58,881 nt of DNA from Burkholderiales bacterium (lineage in GTDB: Bacteria; Pseudomonadota; Gammaproteobacteria; Burkholderiales; Burkholderiaceae_C): positions 1-58,881 of the forward strand of contig RXJV01000071.1 of the NCBI GenBank assembly GCA_003963075.1. The letters run 5' to 3'. Shown here piece after piece: positions 101-11,717 of the stretch. Within the stretch, counting starts at the first letter, position 1. Each line of letters opens with the position of its first letter. Under the pieces are notes generated by a model, which ran no database searches, had not been told where the DNA came from, and was given only the letters and a program-made list of their open reading frames with translations. The position numbers were made by a program, and so were the translations under genes.

Positions 101-862
101 TCAACACCCCTTGAACTGGGCCGATCGGCGCGCCGCCCAGGCGGCCTGGCCCTCAATCAGATCGGCCGAGGCACGCGCCGTTTCGATGTCGGCCTGCAGC
201 CGCAGCGCATCGAGCCGGCCTGCGGCGATCGCATTCAGATGCTGTTTCATCGGCAGCAACGCCAGCGGCGCCATGGCCTGCAGCTCGGCCGTCAGTGCGT
301 CCAGCGCGGCGTCCAGCGTGTCGATGTCAGGCAACAGCTGGTCCAGGTAGCCACAGGCCAGCAGTGCCTGCGCATTCAGCGTGCGACCGGCGAGCAGCAC
401 CTGCTTGGCGGTGGACAGGCCCAGCCGCTCGACGAAGCGCCGCAGGCCGCCAGCGTAGAAATGCAGGCCGATGCGCGCGGCCGGCACGAACATCTCGACG
501 GCCGGCGCGCCGAGCCGGAAGTCACAGGCCAGCGCCAGGTCAGCCGCGCCACCGTAAGCACCGCCGTGCAGCCGGGCGATCGTGATCGGCCGCGCCGCCT
601 CGAGCGCGTCGGCCAGTTCACCAAAGCGGGCGCCGGCATCGATCGTGCCCAGCGCGCCCAGATCGAAGCCGCTGCAGAAGTGCCTGCCCTCGCCAACCAG
701 GACGAGCACGCGCACCGCCGCGTTCGCATTCACTTCATCGAGCAGCTGGCGCAGCACGTGCAGGTCGTCGGCCGTAAGCCGGTTGGCCTGCCGTGGCCGC
801 CGCAGCGTGATGCGGGCCGAGGCGCCTTCCACCTCCAGCCGGGGCGCCAGGCCGGCACTCAT
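101..862 (-). CDS. Enoyl-CoA hydratase/isomerase (crotonase) family protein
   Basis: The 253-residue product has the crotonase fold signatures. There is an oxyanion-hole segment HFCSGFDLGAL (about residues 61-71) and a second one, HGGAYGGAADLALACDFRLG (about 99-118). Length is normal for the family, which acts on acyl-CoA thioesters in the cytoplasm. Of the two glutamates that act as acid/base in classical enoyl-CoA hydratase, the first position appears to be Asp (about residue 108) and the second lies in VPAARIG, where Ala replaces Glu. A standard hydratase activity is therefore doubtful, and isomerase, hydrolase or another crotonase chemistry is as likely. It is the first gene in the window with no operon partner visible. 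The family is clear but the substrate is unknown. Confidence 0.85.
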   Translation of the reverse strand: MSAGLAPRLEVEGASARITLRRPRQANRLTADDLHVLRQLLDEVNANAAVRVLVLVGEGRHFCSGFDLGALGTIDAGARFGELADALEAARPITIARLHGGAYGGAADLALACDFRLGAPAVEMFVPAARIGLHFYAGGLRRFVERLGLSTAKQVLLAGRTLNAQALLACGYLDQLLPDIDTLDAALDALTAELQAMAPLALLPMKQHLNAIAAGRLDALRLQADIETARASADLIEGQAAWAARRSAQFKGC

Positions 863-1024
863 GCGAGGTCGTCGCCAGCGGCGCGTCTGAGGGTGGGCAG
901 GCTGGCTTGGACCATGGCGTTCAGGGCTCGCTATTGTGAAGGCGTCGGCCCGGGTGGCGTCGGTCGATCGGCTGGCGGCCCGACCCGCCCGCTATCACCG
1001 GCGCCCAGCGAGGCGACGGGCCGC

Positions 1025-1666: not shown

Positions 1667-2041
1667 GGCCCGATTCTGGACCGTGGCGTCAACAACGACG
1701 AATTTCGCCCGAGGCGCTGACGCTCTGGCGCAACTGTGGCCGCACCGTGTTGCCGAGGTCTCCAGCACCACTGCACGGTGAGCGGCGACCAGCAGCAAAC
1801 AGGCTGGTACGAGGACTGGCTGGCGAACCTTCTGTGACAGCTTGTCCTCGCTCCACCCCCCCGACGGCGCCCACCCAATCAAGGGGGCGCCGAATCCCAC
1901 CCAGCGGGCTTTGTGTGGAACACTTCCACCAAACTATTCGAGCCGTCCTTTAGCATTGGCCAATCACTGAGGTCCGGCACAGATGGTCCGTCATCGCGTT
2001 GCCACTGAAACGGAACCCAACGGAGTCCCAGGGTATTTGTC

Positions 2042-2800
2042 ATGAGCGAAAAGCATTCCCACGACCTTCAGCCGACGCCCAGTTCGTCGGCTCCCGTCGA
2101 CGCGGCCGCTCGGCAACTCGCCTCGGCCCGCCGGCGTCGCTTCATCAAGCTGGGTGGCGCCGCCGTGCCCACCGCGCTGACCCTGGCCAGCCGCCCTGTG
2201 ATGGCATGGCATTGCAATACGGCATCAACGTGGGGCTCGGCCCAGGGCATGGCCAACAGTTCTTACGCACGCGCCCAAGATCCTGTGCGGCGCTTTGCCG
2301 ATGAGACCTACACCGTCGCTTGCTGGGTTGGCAACACCACCCGCGCAGGGTTGCCGGCGAGCCCCTGGGCCTTGTCGCCGCTGAACCGCGATTGCGACAG
2401 CAGAAACTACCGGTCAGCCGCCTACTACAAGAACTACACGGTCGCCCAACTGCTCGCTGGCACGGGTGCTACCGGTATTTCGGGCGTCAACGCGAACGAC
2501 ACGGTCTGGAGCATCCTGAACGGCACCGCTCAGAGACCCGACCCACTGACTGCGGGCAAGTTCGTGCCCGGCACGTCGACCTGCGGGGAATTCCAGAAGC
2601 TGATGCTGGTCGCCTGGCTGAACTTCAAGGTGCAGAACGACACCCTGAACAAATGCCTGAAGCCGGGCATGACCAATGTGCTCGTGCAGCTCGGCAACAC
2701 CAGCTATGTCGGCCCGACCGGCGCGGTCTGGACCCAGGCCGACGTGGTGAAGTATCTGAAGAAGAACTACGTCGCCTGCACTGACGACAGCTGCGCCTGA
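2042..2800 (+). CDS. Tat-exported cysteine-containing protein, candidate substrate of the adjacent HPr-rel-A system
   Basis: The 252-residue protein is of no family I recognise. A twin-arginine-like signal lies at about residues 35-63: RRRRFIKLGG, then a hydrophobic stretch AAVPTALTLASRPVMA, suggesting export in folded form. The mature part has seven cysteines (in HCN, ACW, DCD, TCG, KCL, ACT and SCA contexts), is rich in Asn, Thr and Tyr, and ends in ACTDDSCA. A CAGGG sequence 10 bases before the ATG may be the ribosome site. The next gene, a PqqD-like protein, starts only 30 bases after the stop, so the gene probably heads the operon 2042-5123. I infer that it may be the target of the downstream kinase or nucleotidyltransferase. 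No catalytic motif is visible to suggest an enzyme. Confidence 0.75.
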   Translation: MSEKHSHDLQPTPSSSAPVDAAARQLASARRRRFIKLGGAAVPTALTLASRPVMAWHCNTASTWGSAQGMANSSYARAQDPVRRFADETYTVACWVGNTTRAGLPASPWALSPLNRDCDSRNYRSAAYYKNYTVAQLLAGTGATGISGVNANDTVWSILNGTAQRPDPLTAGKFVPGTSTCGEFQKLMLVAWLNFKVQNDTLNKCLKPGMTNVLVQLGNTSYVGPTGAVWTQADVVKYLKKNYVACTDDSCA

Positions 2801-2830
2801 CCGGGCTCGGCTGGGGTCTTCTGCGCCGCC

Positions 2831-3112
2831 GTGTCCACGCGCTGGCAACTGAGACGCGCCGGCGCGCTGCGCGTGCGGGAATGGGATGATGCCGGCGTGA
2901 TTTACGACGCCGCCAACGGCAACACCCACCTCATTGACGCCCTGGGCCTGGAGCTGATCGATCTGCTGCGGTCGCATGCTTGGTCGCTCGAAGAACTTGT
3001 GGCCGAACTGCGCGAAGCCTTTCCGCAAGACGATGAGCAAGCCGCTGCGGAACGGCTGAGTGCCAAGCTGGAGCAGCTCGCGCGCCTGGACCTGGTGGCG
3101 GCACAGGCATGA
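2831..3112 (+). CDS. PqqD-like protein of the HPr-rel-A system
   Basis: The 93-residue product starts at GTG. It has the PqqD-type winged-helix pattern: an N-terminal strand region followed by GVIYDAANGNTHLIDALGLELIDLLRSHAWSLEELVAEL (about residues 23-61), where the 'xxxN-hydrophobic-N' core of PqqD proteins is evident. PqqD proteins and related RiPP recognition elements bind leader regions of precursor peptides and present them to modifying enzymes. The gene overlaps the next one, an HprK-like kinase, by four bases (ATGA), so the two are translationally coupled. No radical SAM enzyme or short precursor peptide is nearby. The likely partner is therefore the kinase, or the exported protein encoded just upstream. 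Family assignment to the HPr-rel-A PqqD type comes from the gene context. Confidence 0.8.
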   Translation: MSTRWQLRRAGALRVREWDDAGVIYDAANGNTHLIDALGLELIDLLRSHAWSLEELVAELREAFPQDDEQAAAERLSAKLEQLARLDLVAAQA

Positions 3113-4041
3113 GCCGACGCCTGGCCGCCCTCGGTGAAGGGCAGTTGCGCCAGCGCCTGCGCGGCACGGGGCTGACCCTGCGCCTGCCCCCATTCGTTGT
3201 CCGTCTGCAGTCGGACATTCCACGCGTCGCCCGCGACCTGCTGCTGCTCTACGCTGACTTTGAGCTCGGCCAGGACGACGAGTTCGTCGACTTCCATCTC
3301 GCCGTGCGTTACGACCGCGGCCTCTACGCGCTCTGGCATCGCCTCGCAGGCAAGCGCCAGGCACGGTTCTCGACCGACGGCCTCGCGGCGTTCACCACGC
3401 TGCCGGCCACCCAGGCCTTCCACATGGTCGAGTGGGGACTGAACTGGGCGGTGACCGCCCACGCTCACCAATACATCGTCTACCACGCGGCCGTGCTGGA
3501 GCGGGGGGGGCGTGCCGTCGTGCTGCCGGCGCCGCCCGGCTCGGGCAAGAGCACCTTGACCGCTGCCCTGGCACAGCGCGGCTGGCGGCTCATGTCGGAC
3601 GAGCTCGCGCTGTTGAACCCGCTCGACCAGCGGCTCTACGGGTTGGGCAGGCCGGTCAATCTGAAGAATCAGGCCATCGGGTTGATCCGTGATTTCGCCC
3701 GCGACGCGGTGATGACGAAGCCGGTGCCCGACACGCTCAAGGGCACCCTGTCGCTGATGAAAGCTCCGGATGAGGCGATCGCGCGCGTGCGTGAGGGGGC
3801 CACGCCGACCTGGGTGATCGTGCCCAGCTTCGAGCCCGGCGCCGAACCCAGGCTGGGCCCTTTGCCCAAGGCCCAAGCCCATTTGCTGCTGGCCGAGCAA
3901 GCGTTCAACTACGACATCCACGGCGCCGACGGATTTGATGCCACTGCGGACCTCGTCGACCGCTGCGCCTGCCTGGAGTTCAGCTACTCGCGGCTGGAAG
4001 ATGCGGTCCGCGTCTTCGATGAACTGGTGGCCCAGCCATGA
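3109..4041 (+). CDS. HprK-related kinase A
   Basis: The 310-residue product has an HPr-kinase-like C-terminal domain. A P-loop APPGSGKST (K147) is followed by LAQRGWRLMSDELALLNP, which matches the Walker A and following acidic segment of HprK/P proteins. It lacks the N-terminal regulatory domain of true HPr kinase. The nearby genes do not encode HPr or a sugar phosphotransferase system, so classical carbon-catabolite signalling is unlikely. Comparable HprK-like kinases in some lasso-peptide clusters phosphorylate the C-terminal residue of a precursor, which offers a model here. The gene overlaps both neighbours by four bases (PqqD-like before, nucleotidyltransferase after), strong evidence for one transcript and coupled translation. 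The substrate is unknown. Confidence 0.85.
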   Translation: MSRRLAALGEGQLRQRLRGTGLTLRLPPFVVRLQSDIPRVARDLLLLYADFELGQDDEFVDFHLAVRYDRGLYALWHRLAGKRQARFSTDGLAAFTTLPATQAFHMVEWGLNWAVTAHAHQYIVYHAAVLERGGRAVVLPAPPGSGKSTLTAALAQRGWRLMSDELALLNPLDQRLYGLGRPVNLKNQAIGLIRDFARDAVMTKPVPDTLKGTLSLMKAPDEAIARVREGATPTWVIVPSFEPGAEPRLGPLPKAQAHLLLAEQAFNYDIHGADGFDATADLVDRCACLEFSYSRLEDAVRVFDELVAQP

Positions 4042-5123
4042 CACGACCGCTGCTGGTTGAATTGCTGCTTTCGCCCCAACGGGCGAGCCAGCTGAGTCCG
4101 GCCGACTGGGATCTCTTGATCCGCCAGGCTCGGCGCGCCAACCTGATTGCCCGACTGGCCACCGCGCTGCAGCCGCAGCTGGACGCGCTACCGAACGGCC
4201 CGCGCCAACACCTGCGCTCGGCCTTGTTGATCGCACGCCGCCAACGCATCGCGACACGCTGGGAAGTCGAGTGCATCCGAGCCGCCCTCGTGCCACTGGG
4301 CATACGGCCCATCCTGCTGAAAGGCGCCGCCTACCTGCTGGCCGATCTGCCGGCCGCACGGGGGCGGCTCTTCGGCGACGTGGACCTGCTGGTACCCAAG
4401 GATCAGATCGAGGCCGCCGAGGCCGGGCTGGTCGCCGCCGGCTGGGCCTTCGACGCCGAACTCAGCGACTACGACCAGCGCTACTACCGGCAGTGGATGC
4501 ATGAGATCCCACCCCTGTACCACCAGCAGCGCGAGACCGCACTGGACCTCCACCACAGCATCCTGCCGCCCACCGCACGGGTGCAGGTCAACACCGCCGC
4601 GCTGTTCGAAGACGCGCGCACGCTGCCCGAGCTGCCGGGGCTGCAGGTGCTGGCCCCGGTGACCATGTTCCTGCACAGCGCCGCCCATCTCTTCCATGAA
4701 GGCGAGCTGGACCATGGTCTGCGCGATCTGTTCGACCTTGACGCCCTGCTGCGCGATTTCGGCCGCGACACGGGTTTCTGGACCGCCCTGGTTCCCCGCG
4801 CGCAGGTGCTCGGCCTGGTGCAGCCACTGTTCCATGCGCTGCGCTACACGACGCGTCTGCTCGACACGCCGGTTCCGGTTGATGTCATGCGTGCCGCTGC
4901 CCAGGCGGCAGCCGGCCCGAGGCCGCTGCTCGATGCTTGCTACGATCGCGCCCTGATGCCGGTGCACCCGAGCTGTGACGGCCCGCTGACCGGCATCGCC
5001 CGGCTTGCGCTGTATGTCCGCTCACACTGGCTGCGCATGCCCACCGCCTTGCTCACCCAGCATCTGGCTCGCAAGTTGTGGTCGCGCCTGTTGCCTCCGG
5101 CGGCACCGCGAGCGGGAGCCTGA
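4038..5123 (+). CDS. Nucleotidyltransferase family protein (PF14907 type)
   Basis: The 361-residue product carries the nucleotidyltransferase core RPILLKGAAYLLADLP, then RLFGDVDLLVPKDQ, with the G-D-V-D metal-binding pair at D114 and D116. The later part (HDLHHSILPP-like and MFLHSAAHLFHEGELDHGLRDLFDLDALL segments) matches the uncharacterised nucleotidyltransferase family PF14907, which is found with HPr-rel-A kinases and in some lasso-peptide clusters. It would transfer a nucleotide or a related group to a protein or small molecule, but the acceptor is unknown. Its start overlaps the kinase stop by four bases, and it is the last gene of the operon. After it lie about 670 bases with no convincing gene. 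Confidence 0.85.
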   Translation: MTRPLLVELLLSPQRASQLSPADWDLLIRQARRANLIARLATALQPQLDALPNGPRQHLRSALLIARRQRIATRWEVECIRAALVPLGIRPILLKGAAYLLADLPAARGRLFGDVDLLVPKDQIEAAEAGLVAAGWAFDAELSDYDQRYYRQWMHEIPPLYHQQRETALDLHHSILPPTARVQVNTAALFEDARTLPELPGLQVLAPVTMFLHSAAHLFHEGELDHGLRDLFDLDALLRDFGRDTGFWTALVPRAQVLGLVQPLFHALRYTTRLLDTPVPVDVMRAAAQAAAGPRPLLDACYDRALMPVHPSCDGPLTGIARLALYVRSHWLRMPTALLTQHLARKLWSRLLPPAAPRAGA

Positions 5124-5795
5124 TACGAGCAACCACGGGCCGAACCGCGCCGCGGCGTGGGTGGCGCTTGCAGCTCAAGGCATGGGCTGGACGACCGAGC
5201 GAGCGGGTGCGACGTGTCTTCTTTGGCGTTGGAGCGCCCGGCGTCGCCGAAAACCGACGTATCGGCGGCGAAAGCGCTTTAAGCGGTTCGGCGCGACAGC
5301 CAACCAAGCGGCGAGGCCTGGTGGACGGCGCGCGGCGATTGAGATTCCAGCACTTCGCTTGGCGGCTGGCTGCGGTATTCGCTGACGCCGCCACCATCAA
5401 GACAGGCGTCCAGGCCGAAGGCGGTGCCGAGGTCGGCGGGATCCGGCTCGCTGCGCGCAGCGGCATCACGGCGGAAAATACGCAGCGCTGGCACGAATCG
5501 CATGGCAGACCTCATCGAACGGAGCGGCGACAACCGCAACAACTCCCGAGCGCCAGTTTGCGGGATTCGAATGACAAAAAATCACAACTGCCCAGCGTAA
5601 ATATTGCCTGCCATGCAATTCCACACGTCCGACAGCCCGGCGCCCCAATAGGCATCGGGTGCCGTCGCGAAATTGCATCACTCTCCCTGCGTTGTGCGGT
5701 TGCAAATCGAAGACATCGTTTCACAAGTCGGTTGATCCAAGCGGCAGGCGCCGGCATTAAGCTCCGCAGTCCGCGCGCCCCCCTGGATTACCCGC
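5124..5795. other. Intergenic stretch without a convincing gene
   Basis: The longest gap in the window has no reading frame with a recognisable protein, although open frames cross it on both strands. Base composition becomes visibly richer in A and T from about 5520 to 5760 than anywhere nearby. There is an imperfect inverted repeat at about 5243-5270 (TCGCCG and CGGCGA). No poly-T terminator is evident directly after the nucleotidyltransferase gene. The stretch may be decayed coding DNA plus a promoter region for the small frame at 5796. Confidence 0.5.
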
Positions 5796-8930: not shown

Positions 8931-11717
8931 TCAAAGCGTCTTGAGCAGCTCCTGAACCTGCTTGTGCTGCGGGAACTTCGGCCCCAGCTTGGCCAGCTCG
9001 TCGAGTTCGGCCTTGGCGGCGGCCTTGTCGCCGGACTGAATCAGGATCTGGGCCAGGTTGAGCTTGTACGACGGCTGGTCGGGCTGGTCGCCGATCAGCT
9101 GACGCTGCAGGTTCAGCGCCTTGTCGAAAGCCTTCTCGTTGGCCAACACCGTGGCATAGGTGTCGCGCAGCGCTCCGTCATCGGGCTTGAGCTTGAGGCC
9201 GCGCTCCGCCAGTTCACGGGCACCCGGCTTGCCAAGCTTGCTGCGCAGCCAGGCCACATTGTTGATGAAAGCGACGGCGTCGGGGCTGCGCTTGAGCAGA
9301 GCCTCGTAGCGGGTCAGCGCGCCGTCCAGCTCGCCGCGAGTCAGCATCACGTCGGCGGCGGAAATGGCAAAGGCAGCGTCCTGCGGATGCGCAGCCTGCC
9401 ACTGCGTCTCAAGGGCAAGGGCCTCGTCACGCTTCTTGGCCGCGAGCAGCAGCGCGAATAGGCGCGGCGCCGCGTCAGCCGGCTCTGCAAGCGCAGTGGC
9501 CCTGCGCAGCGCGGCGATGGCCGCGTCCATGCGCTGGCGGCTTGCTTCGATGTCCGCCTCGGCAATCAGCGCAAAGGCCTCCTGCGGATTCTTCTTCTGG
9601 CGCTCGCGCAGCGCGGTCAGGGCCTCGTCGACCCGCCCCTGGCGGGCCGCCAGCTGGATCAACAGGCGCTGCGCAGCCACCGCGGCCGGCTCGGCCTCGA
9701 GCGCGCGCTTGACCTCGCGCTCGGCGCCAGCAAAGTCCTCGTCCTGGATGCGCAGTTGCGCCAGACCCAGCCAGCCCGCCGCCCGGGTCGGCGCCAGCGC
9801 CGTGAGCTGGGTATAGGTCTTGGCGGCCTGTCCCTTGTCGCCCGAAGCAGCCTGGGTGCGGGCCAGCCGTTCCAGCAGCTCCGGGTTCAGCGGCAGCGCG
9901 GCAGCGGCCTCCTGCGCCGCCTGAGCAGCACCGGCCGTGTCGCCCTGACGAAGCTTGTGGTCGATCAGCGCCACACGCAGGCCGGCCTCGGTCGGCTCGG
10001 CACGCACGGCGCTGGCCAGCACCTCGGTGACACGCTCGACCGGCGCACGGGTCCGCACCAGCAGCTCGGCGAGCGCCAGACGGGCCTGCGGCGCACGCTC
10101 CTGGGCAGCGATGAAAGCCTCCATGCGTTTGACCGCCGCGTCGCCGCGGTTGGCCTGCAGGTCGATCGCGGCTAGGCCGAGCACGGCAGGCAGGTAGCCG
10201 GCGTCGGCCTTCAGCGCCGCCTCGAAGGCGGCCTGGGCGGCCGCCGTGTCCTTGCGCGCCAGCAGAATGCGCCCACGCAGCCCGTCCGGCACCGGGCTGC
10301 CCTTCATCTTCGGCGCCAGCTTGTCCACCGCCACCAGTGCCCCGGGCAGGTCACCGCGGCGAGTCAAAGCGTTGATCAGCATCAGGTCGTAGTTGCTGCC
10401 GTTGACATCCTTGGCGGCGATGTCGCGCAGCTGGTTCAGCGCTGCGTCCGCCTTGGCCTTGTTGGCAGCGCCCGGGCTGCCACTGTCGCGGGCGATGGCC
10501 GTGAGCGCCAATGCGGCGCTGGTCTTGGGGTCGTCCGGCCGCAGCTTGGCGGCAGCGCCGAAGGCCTGGTCGGCGCCTTCGAAGTTGCCCTGCAGCAGCT
10601 GGGCCCGTCCAGCCAGCATCAGGGTCTCGGCGTCGGTCTTGCCGCTTTCGAGCAGGGGGCGCAGCGTTTCCAGCGCCTTGGCCGGCGAGCGGCGCTGCAG
10701 TTGCAGGCCCGCGAACTGGCGCCGCAGACCGGGGTCGTCGGGCGTGAGTTTGAGCGCCTGGTTCAGCAGGTTCTCGGCGTCCGGCAGCTCGCCGAGCTGC
10801 TGGTGCGCGCCCGAGGCCAGGCGCAGCAGCGGCAGGTAGTTGGGCATCAGCTTGAGCAACGGCAGCGCCAGCTCGCGGGCCTTGGCGGCATCGCCCTTGG
10901 CGAGCGCGACCTGGGCTTGCAGAAAGCGCCCCTGCGGCTTCTTGGCGAGGGCCAGTGGCATGCTGTCGACCAGCTTGGCCGCGGCATCGAGCTGCTGCCG
11001 ACCCAGGGCCATCCGCAGCAGCAAGGAGCGCGCCTCATAGCTGCCCGGATCGAGCTCCAGCACCTGGCTCAGCAGCGGCTCGGCGTCCTCGGGCTTGCGA
11101 CGCGCCAGCAGCACCTCGGCCTTCAGCAGCAGCACCTTGTTCGCCTTGGGGTTGCGGGCCAGCAGCTCGTCCAACATGGCCAGGGCCTCGTCCGGCTGGT
11201 TGGCCGCCAGCTTGGTGCGCGCGCCGACGGTGACGGCGTCCTCGGCATCGGGCGTCAGTTGCAAAGCGCGCGTGACGGCCAGCTTGGCATCCGGCAGATT
11301 GCCCTGGGCCAGATAGGCCTGTGCCAGCAGCTGCAGCAGCCGTGACATCGCCTGAGGGTCGGCCAGGCTCTGGTCACCGAACTCGGCGATCAGCTTCTGC
11401 GACTGGCCCGAGTTCAACAAAGCCTCGGCGATCAACGGGATCAGTGGGTCGCGTGGCGCGCCCAGGTCCTGAGCGCGCCGCAGCTCGATCTCGGCGCCGG
11501 CCAGATCGCCGCCCTCCAGCAGCGCCTTGCCCAGCCACTGCCGGCCCAGCGCGCTGTCGGGGTTCTGCTGCAACAGGTTCTTCAGCTCGATGACCGCGCC
11601 AGCGGCGTCCTTCTGTTCCAAGCGCTTCTGGGCGGCGCTGAGCAGATCCTCTTCGGAGCGATGGCTGCAGGCGGTCAGGGCGGCAAGCAGGATGAGGGCG
11701 AAAGCGCGCGATTTCAT
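8931..11717 (-). CDS. prsT: PEP-CTERM-associated TPR lipoprotein (PrsT type)
   Basis: The 928-residue protein starts with a lipoprotein signal (MKSRAFALILLAALTAC, lipobox LTAC with Cys17). The rest is mostly tetratricopeptide repeats, many with the form 'A-x-x-LxxALxLxPxD', from residue 30 to the end. Length and composition match the PrsT family (TIGR02917). PrsT genes usually lie in exosortase/PEP-CTERM exopolysaccharide loci with epsH and prsK/prsR. None of those is in this window, so the protein may act with genes elsewhere. It is probably anchored in the outer membrane or inner membrane and organises polysaccharide assembly. Upstream is the divergent Hsp70-like gene. Confidence 0.85.
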   Translation of the reverse strand: MKSRAFALILLAALTACSHRSEEDLLSAAQKRLEQKDAAGAVIELKNLLQQNPDSALGRQWLGKALLEGGDLAGAEIELRRAQDLGAPRDPLIPLIAEALLNSGQSQKLIAEFGDQSLADPQAMSRLLQLLAQAYLAQGNLPDAKLAVTRALQLTPDAEDAVTVGARTKLAANQPDEALAMLDELLARNPKANKVLLLKAEVLLARRKPEDAEPLLSQVLELDPGSYEARSLLLRMALGRQQLDAAAKLVDSMPLALAKKPQGRFLQAQVALAKGDAAKARELALPLLKLMPNYLPLLRLASGAHQQLGELPDAENLLNQALKLTPDDPGLRRQFAGLQLQRRSPAKALETLRPLLESGKTDAETLMLAGRAQLLQGNFEGADQAFGAAAKLRPDDPKTSAALALTAIARDSGSPGAANKAKADAALNQLRDIAAKDVNGSNYDLMLINALTRRGDLPGALVAVDKLAPKMKGSPVPDGLRGRILLARKDTAAAQAAFEAALKADAGYLPAVLGLAAIDLQANRGDAAVKRMEAFIAAQERAPQARLALAELLVRTRAPVERVTEVLASAVRAEPTEAGLRVALIDHKLRQGDTAGAAQAAQEAAAALPLNPELLERLARTQAASGDKGQAAKTYTQLTALAPTRAAGWLGLAQLRIQDEDFAGAEREVKRALEAEPAAVAAQRLLIQLAARQGRVDEALTALRERQKKNPQEAFALIAEADIEASRQRMDAAIAALRRATALAEPADAAPRLFALLLAAKKRDEALALETQWQAAHPQDAAFAISAADVMLTRGELDGALTRYEALLKRSPDAVAFINNVAWLRSKLGKPGARELAERGLKLKPDDGALRDTYATVLANEKAFDKALNLQRQLIGDQPDQPSYKLNLAQILIQSGDKAAAKAELDELAKLGPKFPQHKQVQELLKTL

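Follow-up and report, generated by a model that had tools for sequence, protein, structure and literature searches.

Conserved Tat leaders and serine motifs point to dedicated exported proteins as substrates of the HPr-rel-A kinase system

We analysed a stretch of 58,881 nucleotides (the window), one contig (RXJV01000071.1) of the draft genome GCA_003963075.1 from a Burkholderiales bacterium. Close to its start lies an operon of the HPr-rel-A system, composed of genes for a PqqD-like protein, an HPr-kinase-like protein kinase and a nucleotidyltransferase-fold enzyme, and preceded by a gene for a predicted exported protein. The main finding is that a gene encoding a conserved twin-arginine translocation (Tat) leader adjoins such kinase genes across three samples of genomes, and that nearly all of the proteins so led carry one of two serine motifs at an end of their mature part. 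We propose that HPr-rel-A is a leader-guided system marking one dedicated exported protein before its Tat export, a reading to which we give a probability of roughly two in three. The relevant features of the window, all on the + strand, are the following.

2042-2800, +, proposed substrate gene: open reading frame (ORF) of 252 amino acids, type N, without a Pfam or NCBIfam family
2132-2206, +, conserved leader RRRFIKLGGAAVPTALTLASRPVMA (residues 31-55): Tat-like signal, leader profile A3
2213-2239, +, type-N motif C58-N-T-A-S62-T-W-G-S66: conserved in the type-N alignments
2225-2227 and 2237-2239, +, candidate modified serines S62 and S66: invariant in the 13 rows of alignment A2
2831-3112, +, PqqD_rel_X gene: ORF of 93 amino acids with a GTG start, putative leader-binding protein of the RiPP (ribosomally synthesized and post-translationally modified peptide) recognition element (RRE) type
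3109-4041, +, HprK_rel_A gene: ORF of 310 amino acids, HPr-kinase-like protein kinase with H126, K147, D164 and E165
4038-5123, +, NTP_transf_5 (PF14907) gene: ORF of 361 amino acids, nucleotidyltransferase-fold enzyme with D114, D116 and D170

The operon is a member of the HPr-rel-A system of NCBIfam. Both NCBIfam models are over their cut-offs and adjoin here, TIGR04353 (PqqD_rel_X) with 56.6 bits (cut-off 35) and TIGR04352 (HprK_rel_A) with 348.1 bits (cut-off 200); the first protein also matches Pfam PqqD (PF05402, 26.1 bits, cut-off 23.4). The third enzyme matches Pfam NTP_transf_5 (PF14907) with 184.9 bits (cut-off 31.2), a nucleotidyltransferase that we take to be expected in HPr-rel-A operons. 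In the source draft genome, PF14907 and TIGR04353 exceed their cut-offs at one place each, and TIGR04352 has one match. An earlier note, made from the sequence alone, had described three genes overlapping by four bases and starting 30 bases after a Tat-type, cysteine-containing protein of no recognised family. The ORFs and family matches bear this out: the overlaps lie at 3109-3112 (PqqD-like/kinase) and 4038-4041 (kinase/nucleotidyltransferase), the gap spans 2801-2830, and the 252-residue protein has 7 cysteines and no Pfam or NCBIfam family at E≤1. The NCBIfam models name the enzymes only, and the substrates stand without a family: of 11 substrates compared with NCBIfam and 11 with Pfam (the window's and ten more each time), none was over cut-off. 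The kinase profile matched solved HPr kinases at E 0.0016, and PDB sequence searches returned nothing for the substrate or the nucleotidyltransferase and nothing credible for the PqqD-like protein. No sigma-70-like promoter was found at 1800-5400. The arrangement is not due to chance, because it recurs across the phylum.

This recurrence was established in three samples. The order sample comprised 150 genomes, 25 of which (the window's included) have an HprK_rel_A gene over cut-off. The named loci were the best 80 of at least 234 relatives fetched by kinase alignment, 3 of them repeating order-sample loci. The phylum sample comprised 398 genomes with 61 over the kinase cut-off, that is, 5 in the order set, 55 others and one with a fragmented kinase gene (G316). 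A profile of the 23 first-found leaders was then applied to the new loci. All 25 kinase loci of the order sample contain a leader-bearing ORF, 22 upstream and three downstream (L059, L047, L049); in the 22 loci, an ORF of 139-258 amino acids with a similar twin-arginine leader lies directly upstream of the PqqD-like gene. Among the named loci the leader ORF was present in 78/80 (77 upstream and one, L130, downstream), the two others being contig edges with only 799 and 358 bases upstream. The phylum sample yielded 48/55, with 47 upstream on the same strand and one on the opposite strand (L183), and G316 has a leader ORF upstream of its kinase piece. Low-scoring leader ORFs were counted by their position (L109, 6.6 bits; L140, 9.7; L210, 5.1; L206, 9.0; L204, 12.6; L213, 14.0; L216, 14.8). 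Comparison of the loci shows that the usual arrangement is one substrate gene adjoining the machine. A split arrangement was observed at L243 and L245, where the substrate and a PqqD-like gene stand together and HprK_rel_A lies on another contig with no PqqD nearby.

The idea of the earlier note that the system acts on the exported protein encoded next to it is strongly supported by these counts, and the gene, far from being absent from most HPr-rel-A loci, is present at most of them. What is conserved in this adjacency is the leader together with a serine motif and not the whole 252-residue protein, for which the note had suggested a search: the whole query matched in only 4/150 order genomes, its own included. 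In one of these four (G035) an internal stop interrupts a leader-like ORF, and no kinase exceeds the cut-off. Such a search reaches few genomes because the mature part diverges fast, and the comparison was therefore made with the leader.

To assess the specificity of the leader, the 150 order genomes were searched with profile A3, built from 32 diverse rows; at most 51 candidates were scored per genome, a limit at which weak leaders could be missed. At E≤1e-6, a threshold chosen after the list was seen, A3 has one match in each of 22/25 kinase genomes and none in the 125 others (Fisher p 1.7e-23); without the 11 genomes that supplied A3 rows, the counts are 11/14 and 0/125 (p 6e-14). The kinase genomes without a match (G049, G137, G067) have divergent leaders visible at the locus. 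In the window's genome the profile finds the proposed substrate gene at E 5.7e-14, the next match being at 0.006. The substrates are predicted Tat-exported proteins, as judged from a twin-arginine signal, a hydrophobic stretch and an A-x-A-like end, with RR in 137 and KR in 4 of 141 proteins at a position selected as RR or KR. In the window's protein the twin arginines are residues 31-32, the hydrophobic stretch ends with VMA at 53-55, and cleavage of the leader would be expected after Ala55. Operons can hold unrelated genes, and one could imagine a neighbour that has no part in the system and merely travels with it. We consider this highly improbable, since the adjacency is found in three samples, strong leader matches occur only in kinase genomes, and the leader is conserved across unrelated mature domains.

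The mature domains are indeed of two kinds. The samples gave 148 leader proteins, of which 145 are distinct (the duplicates L072, L093 and L116 were dropped). They were aligned as type N (93 rows, leaving out L051, L086, L098, L109, L124 and L209) and type C (43 rows, leaving out L192, L216 and L218). The mature parts of the two types are unrelated: the N profile finds 0/43 type-C proteins, the C profile 0/93 type-N proteins, and hhalign gives a probability of 0.1%. Each type is recovered by its own profile (93/93 and 42/43). The leaders, in contrast, are shared, as the N-leader profile matches 40/43 type-C leaders and no shuffled leader, and the C-leader profile matches 40/93 type-N leaders. 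Type N carries the motif C-x(1-4)-S-[GA]-x-x-S-[GA] just behind the signal, with the two serines in 92 and 91 of 93 rows, both in 91, and the Cys in 90; after the twin arginine, these Ser and Cys positions are the best conserved columns. Type C comprises 46 proteins (median length 171 amino acids, against 222 for all non-C proteins) and has a C-terminal [STAG]-[CA]-[WFYLI]-x-S-[FLIVM], its serine lying 2-6 residues from the C-terminus in 36/46. A common form, [ST]-x-x-x-S, fits most motifs of both types. In the 145 proteins the N and C patterns were observed 81 and 46 times and averaged 3.1 and 0.4 in shuffled mature sequences, a comparison with shuffles that take no account of common ancestry and with type-C rows that had been selected by pattern. 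A serine inside the leader (TLxS) was also considered as the target and was dropped, its conservation being about 80% in type N and 51% in type C.

In both types, the motif stands at one end of the mature protein. The AlphaFold model of the window's substrate has a mean predicted local distance difference test score (pLDDT) of 64.6. Residues 1-55 and 57-86 score below 50, and the mature part is helical; the position of the S62/S66 motif within the low-confidence residues 57-86 would fit an accessible site. Foldseek returned nothing credible with this model, and a search of the plasmid collection did not recover the substrate. The terminal position of the motif and the probably flexible stretch in the model would also suit a classical RiPP pathway, in which the real product is a short peptide released from one end of the precursor and the folded domain is a carrier. 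We think this improbable, because the mature domains are themselves conserved families and no dedicated protease or exporter gene was present among the six neighbours examined.

The kinase itself follows the type of its substrate. Residues H126, K147, D164 and E165 were kept in 160/160 kinases examined. A His-Lys-Asp-Asp set is reportedly required by lasso-peptide kinases, and its last residue would here be a Glu if the residues are equivalent. In a FastTree phylogeny of the 160 kinases, a single N/C label change accounts for the 137 labelled tips, with a minimum of 33 in 200 shuffles, and the C side has a support of 0.988. Descent of one operon would also give this split, and the tree therefore speaks for an unbroken pairing and not for repeated co-adaptation. 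Ten proteins that had been found by their leader alone and lay outside the motif-defining set (L047, L049, L183 and those of L243-L249) served as a blind set. All ten have a motif, two N and eight C, the protein of L245 showing a loose N-pattern match as well; nine out of nine kinases in the tree fall on the side matching the motif, the tenth (G316) being outside the tree.

Tat proofreading chaperones that bind signal peptides exist, and the part common to all the substrates is the Tat leader. The PqqD-like protein might thus be such a chaperone, and the system one of export proofreading only, the substrate remaining unmodified and the kinase phosphorylating the chaperone or another regulator so as to time export. 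The adjacency of the PqqD-like gene to the substrate at L243 and L245, with the kinase elsewhere, is in keeping with this scheme. However, it leaves unexplained both the two best conserved serines of the mature part and the match between kinase clade and motif type, and we regard it as unlikely.

The third enzyme is less constant. Alignment A4 (16 rows) shows its D114, D116 and D170. Its model has a pLDDT of 92.8, and the best PDB neighbours are nucleotidyltransferases, with FKRP lower down and none at E≤0.001. Of the 160 loci, 146 have a PF14907 relative within 2.5 kb, which in 136 follows directly downstream and in 93 overlaps by 4 bases; a PqqD-like ORF was detected in 147. A scan of the phylum sample revealed nine type-C loci in which the kinase stop coincides with, or lies near, the start of an ORF with the P-loop motif of sulfotransferases. 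Five of them are without PF14907 (L194, L195, L198, L199, L200) and four are not (L173, L180, L181, L182); the one such ORF examined (L199) combines TPR with Sulfotransfer_3. The sulfotransferase in the place of PF14907 suggests an alternative tailoring step, and the retention of kinase, leader and motif at these five loci makes the kinase step the more constant one. The same loci count against a direct action of the nucleotidyltransferase on the protein (AMP or sugar-phosphate, in the manner of LicD or FKRP), with the kinase phosphate as a primer or a regulatory mark. Its model neighbours are nucleotidyltransferases and FKRP, which was crystallised with CDP-ribitol, is among the weaker matches; but the nucleotidyltransferase homologue PsmN is described, in the pseudomycoidin work, as adding hexoses to an already phosphorylated serine. 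Such a direct action does not seem likely to us.

According to the leader-guided reading that we prefer, the PqqD-like protein would bind the conserved Tat leader and hold the substrate in the cytoplasm. The HprK-like kinase would then phosphorylate a serine of [S/T]-x-x-x-S, either S62 or S66 in the window's protein and one near the C-terminus in the sister group. We infer serine as the target of HprK_rel_A by analogy with PadeK, PsmK and LppK. The nucleotidyltransferase-fold enzyme might next add a sugar, a sugar-phosphate or a nucleotide to the phosphate, a sulfotransferase possibly taking its place in those type-C loci whose gene content shows the exchange. The finished protein would leave through Tat, the leader then being removed, and the product would probably serve the cell surface, in connection with XrtA/PEP-CTERM exopolysaccharide.

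Several observations weigh against this reading. PF14907 is missing within 2.5 kb in 14/160 loci (some of them contig ends) and no PqqD was detectable in 13. In six phylum-sample loci the substrate lies elsewhere in the genome (L186, L197, L207, L222, L185 and L166, the last at only E 3.4e-5), and for L203 no match was found in its genome (G332, 57% complete), where the contig ends 62 bases upstream. Besides the late choice of the leader threshold, A3 at E≤0.001 also matches 13/125 kinase-free genomes (best 4.9e-6, mostly large ORFs); ordinary Tat signals would seem to explain these weak matches at most, and the conservation of the leader could come partly from the needs of Tat. The type-C serine, present in 43/43 rows, is a circular result because the rows were picked with the motif pattern. 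The loose N pattern occurs in 37/1798 other ORFs of the named loci, and the C pattern in 9. Four of the 145 substrates have neither motif (L051, L098, L109, L209), and L122 and L210 are ambiguous; L086 and L124 do have the N motif, in mis-started ORFs. Another role for the conserved Cys and Ser is conceivable. Finally, deletion of the nucleotidyltransferase had no detectable effect in a study of the linear polyphosphorylated peptide (LPP) system (PMC13381572), which weakens the third step. As a side observation, the upstream ORF of L051 (148 amino acids) has the leader followed by a low-complexity mature part rich in Gly/Asn and Ser.

That LPP system of Bacillota is the closest known one. LPP consists of an RRE, an HprK-like kinase, an NTP transferase and a precursor with a conserved N-terminus (PMC13381572). 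A discrete RRE, an HprK-like kinase and an NTP transferase also accompany a leader-bearing precursor here, and in both systems a conserved N-terminal leader is followed by a variable rest. LppK phosphorylates Ser3 directly behind the leader, where type N has its conserved serine, and LPP loci, too, lie near surface polysaccharide genes. However, the LPP leader motif YxxPxVLxHQxIxFETxxS is not found in the window's substrate, whose residues 1-55 contain neither Tyr nor Trp, and no SipW-like leader peptidase or MsbA-like exporter, both of which belong to LPP, is encoded by the four operon genes or by the six neighbours as far as 11.7 kb. LPP is moreover described as restricted to Bacillota, whereas here a Tat signal forms the leader, a whole protein (197 residues in the window) stands in for the "core", and the serine site is one of two alternatives.

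In the phosphorylated lasso peptides paeninodin and pseudomycoidin, the HPr-kinase homologues PadeK and PsmK phosphorylate a peptide serine, C-terminal as in our type C, and PsmN adds one or two hexoses onto the phosphate (PMC9266682, PMC8498205). The substrate here is a protein and not a threaded peptide, and neither a lasso macrolactam cyclase nor a B2 protease was found among the four operon genes and six neighbours. The bufferins of the MNIO systems provide a precedent for the leader: they have RiPP-type precursors whose export signal may act as a recognition sequence, masked until modification (PMC12452194). They differ by a cysteine chemistry performed by iron enzymes and by Sec signals, and the words kinase and Tat are absent from the main text of that paper. 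HPr-rel-A works like LPP and the phosphorylated lasso systems and is a member of neither by the features examined.

The genomic setting bears on the destination of the product. Both type-C loci examined (2/2) sit among XrtA/PEP-CTERM exopolysaccharide genes, and, within the order sample, 22/25 kinase genomes and 17/125 others have a match over cut-off to the XrtA glycosyltransferase model TIGR03087 (Fisher p 6e-13, uncorrected for relatedness). In the nine genomes with both on one contig, TIGR03087 lies 11-58 kb from the kinase in seven and about 1 Mb away in two; in the window's genome it is on another contig. One further feature of the window belongs to this setting, 4 kb from the operon.

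8931-11717, -, PrsT (TIGR02917), TPR protein of the XrtA/PEP-CTERM system

We consider about evenly balanced the wider proposal of a phylum-wide HPr-rel-A machine by which whole proteins bound for Tat export are first phosphorylated, at a serine motif directly behind the signal or at the C-terminus, and afterwards glycosylated, nucleotidylated or sulfated. In such a machine the Tat signal would act as a RiPP-type leader coupling modification to export, and the product would be linked to XrtA/PEP-CTERM exopolysaccharide, perhaps being a matrix protein attached through phosphate or sugar.

A full-text literature search, which left subscription papers largely uncovered and is thus no proof of absence, returned no paper on the HPr-rel-A system among the matches listed, and the words HPr and kinase are absent from the main text of the RRE-Finder paper and of its 2025 successor. 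The present analysis offers substrates and candidate modified residues for a kinase/nucleotidyltransferase system named by NCBI and without a described target in the literature searched, and the pairing spans many genera of Pseudomonadota. The purpose of HPr-rel-A becomes a testable question. If our proposal is true, dedicated serine phosphorylation of secreted proteins, guided by an export signal, joins bacterial cell-surface biology, and RRE-guided phosphorylation extends from the peptides of Bacillota to full-size proteins.

Two minor observations concern individual loci. By the leader profile, the seven HprK-like loci below the family cut-off (L223-L229) gave no leader protein. One of them, L224, has a neighbouring ORF of 90 amino acids (602-875, minus strand, counted from the kinase match) that combines an RR leader, RREFLARAGRFAAFTPPAVTLLL, with a tail rich in Gly, His and Pro; this is possibly a parallel system. 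At L119, two leader ORFs with similar motifs occupy the same upstream stretch (-2402 to -383 and -1819 to -1090 relative to HprK), as if two substrates were served by one machine.

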